From Nautilus pompilius (taxonomy: Eukaryota; Mollusca; Cephalopoda; Nautilida; Nautilidae), in the NCBI GenBank assembly GCA_018389105.1, contig JACATO010001697.1, forward strand, positions 1-64,000: a stretch of DNA of 64,000 bases, read 5' to 3'. Under the pieces are notes generated by a model that did no database searches, was not told where the DNA came from, and worked only from the letters and a program-made list of their open reading frames with translations. Each line of letters opens with the position of its first letter. Within the stretch, counting starts at the first letter, position 1. The translations under genes were made by a program, and so were the position numbers. Below, piece after piece: positions 13,035-57,314 of the stretch.

Positions 13035-13295
13035 TAAATAAACAAAGCGTATATATTTATGCGTATACAGTGTCGCCTGTGTATCGCTGCCCTAAGTAAG
13101 AAGAGCCGTATCGTTATATGCGTAAGTACTGTTAGCTCCTTGATGCGCGCCATCTTGATTTTTATCTGCACGATATCGCGCTATGCGCAGACTCAAACCA
13201 GTCGTGGCGCTTCGTCTGCAAACATCAGCACCCACCCACCGCGCAGTAACCTCGCCCCGCAGGTCGCCCGGTCGGCCGCTGCGGTTCATGCCGGT

Positions 13296-13330
13296 TATAA
13301 AACCTAGCGGTTTGTGGTTTGCGCTCATAG
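13296..13330 (+). promoter_or_regulatory. core promoter: TATA box and initiator
   Basis: TATAAAA is at 13296-13302, flanked by GC-rich sequence. The A of a TCATAG initiator-like motif at 13327 lies 31 bases downstream of the first T of the TATA box, the canonical distance to a start site. The predicted 5' UTR to the ATG at 13550 would be about 220 bases and CpG-rich. This supports transcription toward the TEAD-partner gene. The start site is inferred. Confidence 0.55.
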
Positions 13331-13549
13331 TTTTTTATCGATCTCTGGCGGAGTTAGAACTCGTCGGAGCTGCTGTCGACATCTTGAAGGGGGTCTCTGC
13401 TCACTGACTCAGCCAGCACGGCGCAGTTGTCGCGGAGCGCGCGTGCCGTATCGATTCACCACCCACCGAACAGTCCGCGTGTGCGAGTCGATTTCTGCGG
13501 ATCCGCTGCGAACAGCCCCGGCCAACCTCTTCCCCAGCTCGCCTGTGAC

Positions 13550-14176
13550 ATGGATCTCTACGCTTCTCTCCTCGCCAAACAGCCAGGCAAGGCCTTCGAG
13601 AGCGGGCCGCTGTTCGGCGCCAAGACCCTCCGCCCCGCCGTCTCCGAAAGTAAGGACATGAACGTACCCCTCCGGCACCGGCAGCTACCCGCCTCGTTTT
13701 GGCAGGAGCCGAACACACGATCCAGGTACCCGTTTGACTACTTCAGCGTGCCTTTGACCAACATGGACCCCAAGCTGTACTTCCAGACCTACAAGGACAT
13801 GATGCAGAGGCTGTATGGACAAGTACCCGGGGTAGGTTCACGGTATCCCATCACTGAGTACCTGTACTATAACTACGGATCTAAATACCAGGCGGCTGTG
13901 CCACCGCACTTGGAGCAATCTTGGAACACTAAATTATACCAGACAGATAAGAAATCACACACGATACCTCCGGGTTATCCACTCCAGTCTCACCCGTGTC
14001 CGTGTTCGGGGTATTTCTGTGGAGCTACCCACACCAGTAACCTGGATCTCAGCGCTCTTGGACAGTACCCGTCAGACGGCGCTTCGTTATGCCCGTACCC
14101 AACATGGAGGCCGGTTCCATCAAAGACCACGTCTTCATACCCGTCTCGTTTTCACCCTTTTGGAGACGTTCAATGA
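13550..14176 (+). CDS. TEAD-binding omega-loop protein, FAM181/YAP-type
   Basis: A single uninterrupted frame encodes 208 residues. The ATG at 13550 is preferred over the longer upstream frame because it has a strong context (G at -3, G at +4) and the residues before it look like translated 5' UTR. Residues 38-55 (NVPLRHRQLPASFWQEPN) match the omega-loop used by YAP, TAZ and FAM181A/B to dock on TEAD transcription factors: a basic strand, the LPxSF[F/W] core at 46-51 and a following P. No WW domain, PDZ ligand or coiled coil is seen, so it is not YAP itself. Residues 75-90 (KLYFQTYKDMMQRLYG) could form an amphipathic helix; the C-terminal half is rich in Tyr, Pro and Ser and has a Cys patch (CPCSGYFC, 150-157). 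The likely role is a nuclear TEAD cofactor or competitor. FAM181 orthology rests on the loop alone, since other conserved FAM181 segments are not evident. Confidence 0.85.
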   Translation: MDLYASLLAKQPGKAFESGPLFGAKTLRPAVSESKDMNVPLRHRQLPASFWQEPNTRSRYPFDYFSVPLTNMDPKLYFQTYKDMMQRLYGQVPGVGSRYPITEYLYYNYGSKYQAAVPPHLEQSWNTKLYQTDKKSHTIPPGYPLQSHPCPCSGYFCGATHTSNLDLSALGQYPSDGASLCPYPTWRPVPSKTTSSYPSRFHPFGDVQ

Positions 14177-25684: not shown

Positions 25685-26320
25685 TTCTGTTTGGAAGACC
25701 TTTCAGTTTAATGGAAGACTCCGGGTTCAGAAAGATAAATGATCCAATTCGTGAAGGTTTGTGCTAATGTTGATACTATTAGAAAGAAGGCGTCAAGTGT
25801 CGCCAGTCCATTAAAGATGAAGTCTTTCTCTAAATACTTTCTCTGCAACACGTTCGGATTGCTGTTAGCATCTCAAGAACACGTTCTTGAAGTACTTACA
25901 CAGTATGATATCAGTGTACAGAAAATATACAGAATAGCAGCGGATAACGGTGGAGATATGATAAATGTGTCCAGCACATGAGTGATGGAAATGAACAGAG
26001 AAGTAAAGAAAACTTGTAATCTGGAAAAGACATACTTGATGTTGACGCAGGTGTTGGTCATAAAGAAAACAGATTCAGGTGAGATGCGTGGAATGGAACA
26101 AGCGGGATTGACCGAACTTGGTACTGGCGTTGCAGTAATTAGTGTCCGATGCTCAGCTCATACTCTTCAGCTAGCAGTTGACGATGCATTTTAGGATCTA
26201 AGTACTGCTTTCATATTTGCTGCAGCCGTCTGCAACGAAAAAAAGAGAGCTCAGAACCGCACAATTATCCATTATAAAAACTGAAACTTATCTCAGACGG
26301 CCCCACGAGATGACACTTCA
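25685..26320 (+). pseudogene. hAT transposase remnant
   Basis: Pieces of a hAT-superfamily transposase occur in order. RPFSLMEDSGFRKIND (about 25698-25745) matches the conserved PFS-V-EDxGF block. After a frameshift, VDTIRKKAS and YDISVQKIYRIAADNGGDMI (about 25892-25960) match the TDNGxNM catalytic block. After an in-frame stop at 25979-25981 the same frame continues to VRCSAHTLQLAVDDAF (about 26143-26190), the highly typical RCxAHTLQLAV motif. The following RRPHEMTLHFF may be the worn TRWNS block. Frameshift and stops show it is inactive. Ends and target duplication were not found. Confidence 0.75.
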
Positions 26321-26344
26321 TTTTTTTATACGCTCGAGCTCTTG

Positions 26345-26475
26345 TTCGGGTTGAAGGGAATTTCACCCACCAGGACATGGCAGGTTCAAGTTCCCGGCTT
26401 CGCCACAGATGCCGAATGGAACACTATTAAACAAGCAGCCACTTTCCTCCAAACTGGCAAAAAAAAAAAAAAAAA
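26345..26475 (+). mobile_element. tRNA-derived SINE with poly-A tail
   Basis: A Pol III B box, GGTTCAAGTTCCCGGC (about 26383-26398), is followed by about 65 bases of body and a run of 16 A near 26460-26475. The poly-A tail suggests retroposition. It is inserted just after the hAT remnant. The A box is worn. Confidence 0.6.
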
Positions 26476-26710
26476 TAGCAACAAAAGCATCTCCAGCCGG
26501 AACAGCTAACAACCATCGGGGACTTTTACGGCACATGGCTGAACCATCATCTTGAACTCTCAAAAAGTGTCAACGCTTTTCTCGGGGAGCCTGATGAACT
26601 CCAAAAAAAAGAATAAATGTTACTTTTGCTGCAGTCTATTTTTGGTCTAAGGTGCCAGCTGCTGTTATCAGAGAAATAAAAAAGGGGGCAAGGCCAAAGT
26701 TTATCTTGCT

Positions 26711-29541: not shown

Positions 29542-30764
29542 TTAGGCCGTTACAGAAGTTTTGTCACTCTTTATATCATGTTAAATCGGGGTTCATTTTT
29601 TTCATGCTTGTGATGATGTATGCAGATAAGTTACATATTGTTCTGTAGTGTGTGCTTTGGCATACATTATGTAAAACCACCTTTTTAATAATCGTAAAAT
29701 GGATATTTGTTTCAGGGTTCTGAGTGAAGTGTGGATAGAAACATTTTTCGTGCCATTTTGCTTCACTAGTTCAAACTGGGCCACAAGGTGAGCGAGGCAA
29801 CTCGTAACGTTAACCAAGCACGGGGCGAGGACGCAGCGAATGAGCGGACGGTACGACGATGGTTTGCAAGGTTTCGATAGGAGATGTGAGCCTCGAAGAT
29901 AAGGATCGTAGCGGACGTCCTTCCAGCTGTGGTGACGATCGTCTGAAATCCCTGAAAAACGGTGCGAGAAATTGCTGGAGAGCTTGACACAAGCACTGCA
30001 ACTGTTTCCCGGCATCTTGACGCAATCGGCAAGGTGAGAAATTCTCAATTGAACGAACAACAATAAAATCGTCGATTGGGGATCTGCTCTTCGCTTCTCA
30101 TAAGAAACAAAAATGACCCATTTTTTGATCGAAGCATTACATGTGATGAAAAAACGATCAGCACAGCGGCTCGACAGAGACAAGGCGCCTAACCACATTC
30201 TAAAATCCAGCCTCCACCCAAGAAAGGTCATGGTCAATGTCTGGTGGACTGAAACTGGTGTCATCCACTATAACCTTTCGCAACCTGGCGAAACCAGCAC
30301 AGCTGAAGGGCACTGTCGTGAATTAAACATTATTCATCAAAAACTCTCCAAACGACAGCCACATTGGTGAATCGAAGGGGCCCAATCCTGCTCCACGACA
30401 ATGCTCGTCCATGTTGCAAAGGTGACTCATCAGAAACTGAACACGTTGGGGCACGAAATTCCCCTTCAACCAACCTATTCACCAGACCTTTCTCCCACAG
30501 ACCACCTTTTCAAACATCTCGACAGCTTCCTCTGTATGAAACCCTTCTCTAACCAAGCAGCAATTGAAACTGCCTTCCAACAGTTTATCAACTCCAGAAA
30601 TCCAGATTTTATTTTCAAAATGGTATAAATGCGCTTGTAACTCGTTGGCAGAAGTGTACTGATTGTAATGGAACATAGTTTGATTAATAAACTTCACGTT
30701 CAGCCTCGATATGGAGTCTCGTTATTGCGGTAAAAATGCCAACAAAACGTTTGTAACAACCTAA
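29542..30764 (+). mobile_element. mariner transposon with both TIRs
   Basis: A 1223-bp element. The left end begins TTAGGCCGTTACA and the right end, read on the minus strand, begins TTAGGTTGTTACA. Over 23 bases the two ends agree at 19, sharing TTAGG, GTTACA and GTTTTGT blocks. A TA lies directly outside both ends, the standard mariner target duplication. Size and coding content fit a mariner (usually about 1.3 kb). The transposase inside is broken, so the copy is non-autonomous. Confidence 0.88.
29699..30678 (+). pseudogene. mariner transposase, DD34D, decayed
   Basis: Homology runs the full length but in several frames. The helix-turn-helix part gives FKLGHKVSEATRNVNQA and NERTVRRWFARFR with an internal stop just before it (about 29764), then DRSGRPSS after a frameshift. 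The first catalytic Asp is in ITCDEK (30145-30147), then KVMVNVWW, the second in LLHDNARP (30397-30399), and the third in YSPDLSPTD (30500-30502). The spacing between the last two is about 34 residues, so DD34D. The end RWQKCTDCNGT stops at 30678. Span is about 326 codons against about 345 in intact mariners. At least four frameshifts or stops make it dead. Confidence 0.88.
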
Positions 30765-40049: not shown

Positions 40050-40470
40050 CTCTCTCCCTCCACTCTGTCATATCTCCCCCTTCTGTACTGACGTCATATA
40101 TCTCTCTCTCTCTGTACTGACGTCATATCTCTCTCTGTACTGACGTCATATCTCCCCCTCTGTACTGACGTCATATATCTCTCTCTGTACTGACGTCATA
40201 TCTCTCTGTACTGACGTCATATCTCTCTCTCTCCCTCCACTCTGTACTGACGTCATATCTCCCCCTCTGTACTGACGTCATATATCTCTCTCTGTACTGA
40301 CGTCATATCTCTCTCTCTCTCCTCCACTCTGTACTGACATAATATCTCTCTCTTTCTCTCTCTCCCGCCCTCCTCCACTCTGTACTGACGTCATATCTCT
40401 CTCTTTCTCTCTCTCCCGCCCTCTCACTCTGTACTGACGTCATATCTCTCTCTCTCCTCTCTCTCTCGCT
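40050..40470. repeat. CT minisatellite with 11 CRE palindromes
   Basis: Units of about 21-50 bases follow the plan TCTGTACTGACGTCATAT plus a CT spacer of variable length. TGACGTCA is intact at 40089, 40118, 40141, 40166, 40191, 40212, 40248, 40273, 40298, 40386 and 40436 (starts approximate to a base). One copy near 40335 is degraded to TGACATAAT. The full CREB/ATF palindrome is the most conserved part of each unit. Confidence 0.95.
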
Positions 40471-42381
40471 CGCTTCAAAACGTTTTTATCCAAAATCATT
40501 AATTATTCGCTTAGAGTAAATTTCAATTACGCTCTGTCAAGAATAATTAAAAATTTGCGATGGATCCCCGACTTTGTTAATGAGCATATGTATGCAAAAA
40601 AAAATTCCCAAAAGATTACGCGTGTGGATTGTTCGCAGTATCTCTTTAAATTTGGAAGCAGTTCTTCCCTCCCCTCCCCTCGCTGCGCATCTTTGACACA
40701 AAGGAAACGGCTCTCGGTGGGTGTAGCAGTGCGCTGATTTCTTGACGTTACCCTTTAATGTGCTGCATCTGCTGCCTTTATGTCGTCTTGTAGTCTGCAT
40801 TTTCATTTTTTTTACAAACTGTATTAATGAATGCAGATGTTAATTGATTGACAAAATCCAAAAGTCTCCGCACGCGTTACTCTTCTTTTTCTTTTTTTTT
40901 TTTTCTAGAATCTTTTCTGTCGTCTTTTACTGGATTCCAAAGTATCGCAACACATTTGGGCTCCTTTTCCTATAAATCAGTGGAACTGCGGTCACGTTTT
41001 CTTGGCTATTACGCGCATCTTTGAATTCGTGTGGCCACCGACTCTCGCGATTGTTCGAGAACATTACCCTGGTGATACAGAGAATCGCACGATCCGGCCA
41101 TCTCCGCGCAGCCGCATCAACGGAGTAATGGACGTCTTTGTGATGCTGCTCGATTTCGCCTTCATTTCGCTTCAGAAACCGCTATTCTTCATAATCATTG
41201 GAGGTTAATTAAAAAAGTATACTGATCTACGGGTTTGTATGTTCTTATTCGTTTATTTATTTGTTTATTTGCGTGTAAATTTACTATCCTCGGGTCCTCC
41301 ATCACTCCCAGAACAAAACATAACTCTGGCTACACATTTTCCGTCCTCACACTCCTCCTCCTCCTCCTCCTCCTCCTCCCCCAACGACACAGATCCTTGA
41401 TTGTAGATTCTATAAAACGCTCCGGGCGGATACGGAACAAATCCGGTCTGAACACTGAATGTTAAAACGGACGATTTACAAACAATTTCAAGATGATAAA
41501 GGAAACCGCAAAAGGATATTTATCTTGGAACGCCAGTACAATTTGTACTGCCGCCTAGAACTCGTATGTGAATTAGTTTTGGCAGTAGGAAATAATAAGG
41601 ACTGATGGAGAGAGCATTATCCTTACGACAGGACGTGGCAACAAGGCAAAGGAGTCAGCAGTGACAGTATTTAAATCTCTGCGCGAGAGACAGCGGCACG
41701 GGAAGGGATTATAAAGAGGTTTTCTCCCGTCTCTCTCCCTAATCCCGGTACAATTACCGCTGTCACACAACCCGTGCCGTTGTAGGTCTGTTTCTCCTGA
41801 TCGATTCCGAGTTTTACGAGGCCAGTCGGAAAAATCTAACGTTTTTTTCTTCCCTCCTCCTTCTTTCTTTCTTTCTGATATTAATTCTAAATCAAAAACA
41901 CATTTAAATTCGGGGGCTGCGAGAGAAAAGATCAGATAAGACACATCCATCACGCCGCCGTTAGCGAGCGGACGAGATCTCGCCTGATTCACCGTGAAGA
42001 TACCCACCAGGCGGACAGACTTTCGGCGAGTCTAAGATTTCCGTGTCGGCCTGGCGACGGTGGCCCCTCTCCAGCCGGGTGGTGTTTCCGGCCTGGTGGT
42101 ACCACACGCTCAGTAATGTATCGCCGGAAATCTCTGTACCGTCCGTCACCCCACCCCACCCGGAACGTTTAACCGGTAAAGAAGCCTGCCTGCGCAGTGG
42201 AAGCGAAAGGCGTTTCCCGCTGACGTGAGGAAAGCGAGAAGCGGATGATGTTGGTGTGTTCGGCCGCCGCGGTCTGTTCTGTCACCCTGAAAGGAATCTA
42301 TAGTCTCTCGTGAATGGGTATGTTAGTTAATCGGGGTCTCTGAAGCGTCGATCTCTGTCATCTCTCACTCTCACTCTCTCA

Positions 42382-56686: not shown

Positions 56687-57310
56687 TGACGTCACATCTC
56701 TCTGTCTGTACTGACGTCATGCCTCTCCCTCTGTCTGTAGTGACGTCATGCCTCTCCCTCTGTCTGTAGTGACGTCATCTCTCTCCCTCCCTGCGCTGAC
56801 GTCATGTCTCTCTCTCTATCTGTACTGACGTCACATCTCTCTGTCTCTCTCTGTCTGTAGTGACGTCATGCCTCTCCCTCTGTGTCTGTACTGACGTCAT
56901 GCCTCTCCCTCTGTGTCTGTAGTGACGTCATCTCTCTCCCTCTCTGCGCTGACGTCATGTCTCTCTCTCTATCTGTACTGACGTCACATCTCTCTGTCTC
57001 TCTCTGTCTGTAGTGACGTCATGCCTCTCCCTCTGTTTCTGTAGTGACGTCATCTCTATCTGTACTGACGTCATGTCTCTCCCTCTGTGTCTGTAGTGAC
57101 GTCATCTCTCTCCCTCCCTGCGCTGACGTCATGTCTCTCTCTCTATCTGTACTGACGTCATGTCTCCCCCTCTGTGTCTGTAGTGACGTCATGGCTCTCC
57201 CTCTCTGTCTGTAGTGACGTCATCTCTCTGTACTGACGTCATATATCCCCCTCTCCCACCCTGTGTAGGAACGTCATCTCTCTCCCGCTCTGCGCTAACG
57301 TCATGTCTCT
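56687..57310. repeat. CRE minisatellite, 20 palindromes, higher-order repeat
   Basis: Twenty intact TGACGTCA sites lie in about 550 bases, spaced about 20-35 bases apart by CT-rich linkers, plus two worn copies (GGAACGTCAT, CTAACGTCAT). Flank types (TAGTGACG, TACTGACG, GCGCTGACG) recur in fixed order: the sites near 56770, 56798, 56826 and 56861 reappear near 56923, 56950, 56979 and 57014, giving a higher-order unit of about 153 bases made of five sub-units. It passes into plain CT repeat at about 57310. Confidence 0.95.
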
Positions 57311-57314
57311 TCTC

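Follow-up and report, generated by a model that had tools for sequence, protein, structure and literature searches.

In this study, an open frame at 13550 to 14176 of the plus strand was found in the window, namely the whole 64-kb stretch of DNA that was analysed, and its predicted product of 208 residues carries an omega loop of the kind by which several cofactors dock on TEAD. The reading that we prefer, with a probability of roughly 0.55, is that this product is a small, mostly disordered FAM181-like cofactor or competitor of TEAD that would dock mainly through interface 3. The frame and its 208 residues had been proposed previously from the letters of the window alone (the sequence-only reading), and translation bore them out. 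The features of the locus are as follows.

13296 to 13301, plus strand: TATA box TATAAA, a possible core promoter from a scan for TATA-like sites, 254 bases 5' of the ATG
13526 to 13537, plus strand: candidate 3' splice site CCTCTTCCCCAG, pyrimidine-rich, phase 0, read by eye
13550 to 14176, plus strand: predicted coding sequence, 208 aa, start context GACATGG, stop TGA
13559 to 13573, plus strand: YASLL, residues 4-8, a weak interface-2-like candidate that is not a strict LxxLF (motif scan, low specificity)
13664 to 13711, plus strand: predicted TEAD-binding omega loop (interface 3), VPLRHRQLPASFWQEP, residues 39-54, Pfam PF15238
13769 to 13819, plus strand: sole predicted helix of at least 4 residues, residues 74-90 (AlphaFold, pLDDT of the block 56-57, low)
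13820 to 14173, plus strand: unrecognised tail, residues 91-208, rich in tyrosine and proline (pLDDT below 50 throughout)

The sequence-only reading had placed a TEAD-docking-type loop in this part of the protein, and the loop was confirmed there. The profile PF15238 (TEADIR3, that is, TEAD interacting region 3, the omega loop; curated cut-off 26 bits) aligned from end to end (16 positions) with residues 39-54 in the Pfam scan, with 33 bits and an E value of 6.4e-8, and the protein scored 36.2 bits in the genome search; residues 41-54 read LRHRQLPASFWQEP. When the whole protein was searched against PDB chains of at least 20 residues, the top match was the FAM181A peptide of 6l9f (E 0.0017), and a 24-residue segment retrieved the same FAM181A loop at E 8.6e-6, followed by six distinct YAP sequences at E 0.2-0.93. 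Moreover, the loop was identical to that of FAM181A (6l9f chain) at 13 of 17 positions, to those of the PERCC1 orthologue and of an unnamed gene on contig C331 of the same genome at 10 of 17 each, and to those of the host's own YAP and human YAP at 9 of 17 each. The assignment of the loop to the FAM181 type, with FAM181A as the closest among the five loops compared, is thus well supported by sequence comparison.

In 100 dinucleotide-shuffled versions of the whole window, the strict hot-spot pattern was absent, against a single occurrence in the window itself; a less stringent pattern of the contact residues, likewise single in the window, appeared 8 times among the shuffled versions. The bare core LPxSF is present in 7 places when all six frames of the window are read; the core being this common, it is the full motif that carries the weight. 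The interface-3 contact residues of YAP are given as V84, M86, R89, L91, S94, F95 and F96 in the available text of PMC10146773, and these positions were kept in kind in the 208-aa protein as V39, L41, R44, L46, S49, F50 and W51.

A partner for the loop was present in the same genome. Matches to the TEA domain (two pieces) and to the YAP-binding domain (four pieces) were confined to contig C52 in the genome search, so there seems to be a single TEAD gene. One piece of 36 residues matched 43 distinct TEAD/Scalloped sequences, and the two alignments shown for it, to TEF-5 chains, were gap-free. The numbering of the pocket was placed by counting on a TEAD4 sequence. The stretch before this piece ends in DPMLE and is followed by a donor-like site, with Glu263 kept, and the last TEAD exon on C52 keeps the C-terminal HHIY, whose tyrosine we take to be Tyr429. 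This tyrosine is printed as Tyr409 in the available part of PMC7566471. The interface-3 pocket of TEAD includes Val265, Asp272 and Trp299, as listed in the accessible text of PMC10146773, and all three were kept in the C52 piece. Conservation of the pocket residues was the check made on the host TEAD, and these residues were found conserved, so that loop and pocket are both present.

The WW domains of YAP and TAZ, which the sequence-only reading had reported as absent, were likewise not found in the Pfam scan of the 208 residues, where nothing but PF15238 exceeded its cut-off. An ELM2 match was rejected (Pfam E 0.13, below cut-off), and residues 61-208, compared with the PDB, gave one match at E 1.3; the remainder of the protein therefore stays unrecognised, as had been stated. 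No strict LxxLF of interface 2 was found in the 208-aa protein; two strings, YASLL (residues 4-8) and, beyond the loop, MQRLY, resemble it vaguely. The composition included 12% proline and 8.7% tyrosine. The AlphaFold model, built from the single sequence with no alignment, had a mean pLDDT of 40, showed the loop without structure and formed no helix at YASLL. This low-pLDDT model is in keeping with a mostly disordered protein and is silent on binding.

When all six frames of the 728-Mb assembly were searched with PF15238, 13 places were listed at E <= 10, four of which passed the cut-off: YAP (C1026), a PERCC1 orthologue (C591), the unnamed multi-exon gene (C331) and the 208-aa ORF. In 14 control genomes none passed the cut-off and seven matched below it; the control genomes that are named are prokaryotes, which makes this a weak control. 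The loci outside the window that bear on the comparison are as follows.

L001 (C591), 1300 to 2157, minus strand: single open frame of 285 residues with VPMKQRKLPGSFWKEP, carrying a PERCC1 N-terminal region, an LNELF interface 2 and an omega loop
L003 (C331), 1363 to 1563, minus strand (loop also given as L009, G000:C331:2095829-2095876): short exon with the omega loop LPMRQRALPPSFWQQP, passing PF15238
L004 (C1026): YAP, with DLEALF, RNLPASFF and the start of a WW domain, a PF15238 match of the genome search
L005 (C939), 1456 to 1965, plus strand: Vg-like loop exon with RKFPPSFWDS and then a tyrosine/serine-rich stretch, below the PF15238 cut-off

L001 aligned with a segment of human PERCC1 (29 of 53 residues identical, E 7e-16), and for this reason it was taken as the PERCC1 orthologue. 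Its omega loop reads SFW.EP and it has no WW domain, in which it resembles the 208-aa protein; however, only the loop region is common to the two, and the N-terminal region LLxFxELI...RELYYADL and the LNELF of L001 are both missing from the 208 residues. At C331, the loop exon appears by eye to be bounded by acceptor and donor sites, and the next exon begins EVRPVTPPDEKKRLRL; the gene was not recognised and could encode a further TEAD-binding protein. The loop of the host YAP scored 29.8 bits in the genome search versus 25 bits in hmmscan, just under the cut-off, and its WW match was partial and below cut-off, probably truncated by the exon end. The 208-aa protein shares with YAP/TAZ (Yorkie) the interface-3 loop and its contact positions, but it lacks their LxxLF interface 2 and WW domain. 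The loop exon at C939, presumably of the Vestigial/VGLL2 type as judged from its sequence, represents a family that resembles the 208-aa protein in its omega loop and in the many tyrosines of the stretch after the loop, whereas TONDU (VxxHF) was not found in the 208 residues nor in the motif scan of the whole 13388-14173 frame. The identity of the 208-aa protein with the host's YAP, PERCC1 or Vg was rejected because YAP, PERCC1 and the Vg-like exon are separate loci.

The sequence-only reading had offered two identities, an invertebrate FAM181 ortholog or an independent effector, and each drew some support: the loop is that of FAM181A, and the FAM181 N-terminal region was not found. Two parts of FAM181 are described as conserved in PMC9710580, one at the N terminus and one with interfaces 2 and 3; this conflicts with PMC10146773, whose available text describes FAM181A and FAM181B without an interface-2 helix and has FAM181A bind TEAD at interface 3 only. 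A Capitella FAM181 is named in PMC9710580, so an invertebrate FAM181 is already known, and an annelid FAM181B is named in the portion available of PMC10380512. In the text at hand from PMC8526868, the TEAD-binding region of YAP itself is called a FAM181 domain, so that a protein may be named FAM181 for its loop only. Among the matches listed, FAM181 was not found in the literature on molluscs, annelids and similar, and no paper was found under the name TEADIR.

The FAM181 N-terminal region was sought with a 39-residue segment and with a motif of its core. The segment gave no alignment at E <= 100 when compared with the open frame of 262 residues, and the core motif was not found in the window, where one loose, out-of-context match lies at 40562 (minus strand). 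In the genome, the exact degenerate pattern had 0 matches, and the 39-aa query also had 0, an emptiness that shows nothing, as there was no known positive for calibration. With up to two mismatches, the pattern matched 77 places versus 38 for the reversed control; 12 of the 77 were translated, including all nine with one mismatch, and none resembled the FAM181 N-terminal region. Since this search had no positive control, it does not prove absence from the genome. Membership thus fails in one tested feature, for which the control was incomplete, and the protein is called FAM181-like and not FAM181. Most likely, to judge from its sequence, it is a divergent FAM181-like protein that has lost the N-terminal region or never had it. 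Its omega loop is nearly identical to that of FAM181A, with SFW and EP, and FAM181 is not known to have a WW domain either; unlike FAM181A/B, it has no detected N-terminal region, its loop starts already at residue 39 of 208, and the rest is unrecognised.

It is possible, though the odds are clearly against it, that the protein instead belongs to an independent family of omega-loop TEAD cofactors outside FAM181, whose loop evolved or was acquired on its own and whose tyrosine- and proline-rich body is unrelated to named families. The lack of recognised sequence outside the loop and of a FAM181 N-terminal region would agree with such an origin, and Vg/VGLL2 shows that omega loops do occur in a different cofactor family (available text of PMC7566471); in PMC9710580, the similarity of Vg and YAP is read as a family relationship. 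The loop itself argues the other way, being closer to FAM181A than to any of the other four. Equally tentative is the idea that lineage-specific TEAD cofactors consisting of the omega loop only have arisen separately from FAM181, YAP, PERCC1 and Vg. Were a separate family true, at least five omega-loop proteins (YAP, PERCC1, the Vg-like protein, the C331 protein and the 208-aa protein) would compete for the pocket of the single TEAD. It also counts against the preferred FAM181-like reading that the relationship is carried by only 16-17 residues; the animal sequences compared by genome search were those of the host genome.

The start of the gene bears on two further explanations. The sequence-only reading had called the protein intronless, and this stood for the coding frame, which is unbroken, but less so for the gene, because a plausible 3' splice site, CCTCTTCCCCAG, lies 12 bases 5' of the ATG at 13550. 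This putative acceptor would preserve the phase of the ORF, and there may thus be a 5' intron. In that case the ORF could be the final exon of a larger FAM181 gene, with an N-terminal part that is encoded farther 5', lies outside the contig or has diverged past recognition. We consider this unlikely. It would fit the acceptor, the frame being open upstream to 13388 (262 residues, 13388-14173) and the contig beginning at window position 1, so that any exons farther upstream would be missing. Against this, the ATG at 13550 is the first downstream of the TATA box at 13296, the sole ATG in 13200-13549 being upstream of the box, and the two together fit a short 5' leader and suggest a local gene start; furthermore, the FAM181 N-terminal core motif is missing from the window and no clear one was found in the genome. 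Least probable of all, and in our view very improbable, is a chance or decayed, unexpressed open frame with an omega-loop-like string. The length of the ORF by itself is weak evidence for a gene: an ATG frame of at least 208 codons arose in 5 of 1000 local shuffles (three forward frames), which leaves some room for chance, and other stop-free frames in the window reach up to 221 codons in ordinary composition and up to 309 in simple repeats. A chance origin is opposed by the absence of the strict loop pattern from the window shuffles, by the promoter-like upstream sequence and by the other three over-cut-off places, which sit in gene-like sequence, two of them recognised (YAP and PERCC1). It is also opposed by the high codon-position asymmetry of the ORF, which was reached by 14 of 634 same-size windows, three of them overlapping the ORF and most of the remainder lying in repeats or unexamined.

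The protein had no further match in the 728-Mb genome at E <= 1; the small gene is single-copy, with no paralogue at this threshold, and a retrocopy or repeat origin of the ORF was rejected for that reason. Repeated and mobile sequences were observed elsewhere in the window. A mariner-type transposase remnant lies at 30104-30625 (plus strand; PF01359, E 1.7e-19, with DDE_3 below cut-off), and frames at 25739-26506 (plus strand) resemble by eye a decayed hAT-type transposase (HTLQLAVDDAF), with no Pfam match over cut-off. Two tandem arrays, at 40067-40469 and 56697-57314, 16 kb apart, have units with CTGTACTGACGTCAT common to both, and the core TGACGTCA of these units presumably resembles a CRE site; simple repeats were seen elsewhere. 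Of 20 other chosen open frames in the Pfam scan, 19 had no match over cut-off, the exception being part of the mariner transposase, and no tRNA or Rfam match was obtained in the window. In IMG/VR, one stretch matched a peptide pattern, and none was confirmed as a relative.

If the protein is the FAM181-like cofactor that we prefer, the omega loop at residues 39-54 would dock in the interface-3 pocket of the host's single TEAD, much as FAM181A does. By analogy with YAP, L41, L46 and F50 would fill the pocket, R44 would pair with an aspartate, S49 would hydrogen-bond a glutamate and W51 would cap the loop. Docking would proceed largely without the interface-2 helix used by YAP and PERCC1, and the TEAD-bound protein would compete with YAP and Vg. 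The tyrosine- and proline-rich tail would be brought to TEAD target genes and may act as a weak activator or a brake; our guess is that it recruits other factors. We infer this binding, competition and role of the tail, as well as the descent from FAM181. In BioID, FAM181A was one of the TEAD4 neighbours with the strongest enrichment, according to the available text of PMC11574045, and in that of PMC10620186 a chimeric peptide with the FAM181A loop at its end is used as a positive control for TEAD4 binding. Isolated omega-loop peptides bind weakly, with IC50 values of 98 micromolar for YAP, 133 for VGLL2 and 157 for Vg in the part available of PMC7566471; in view of these values the loop alone may not suffice, and binding may require avidity or an additional contact.

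In conclusion, the Hippo growth-control pathway has TEAD as its output, and we regard the proteins competing for TEAD outside vertebrates and flies as poorly charted. What FAM181A does biologically is stated to be not yet clear in the text available from PMC10146773, and the 208-aa protein would bear on the roles of FAM181 genes. Were it to compete for TEAD with hardly more than an omega loop, the protein would illustrate how few features such competition requires.
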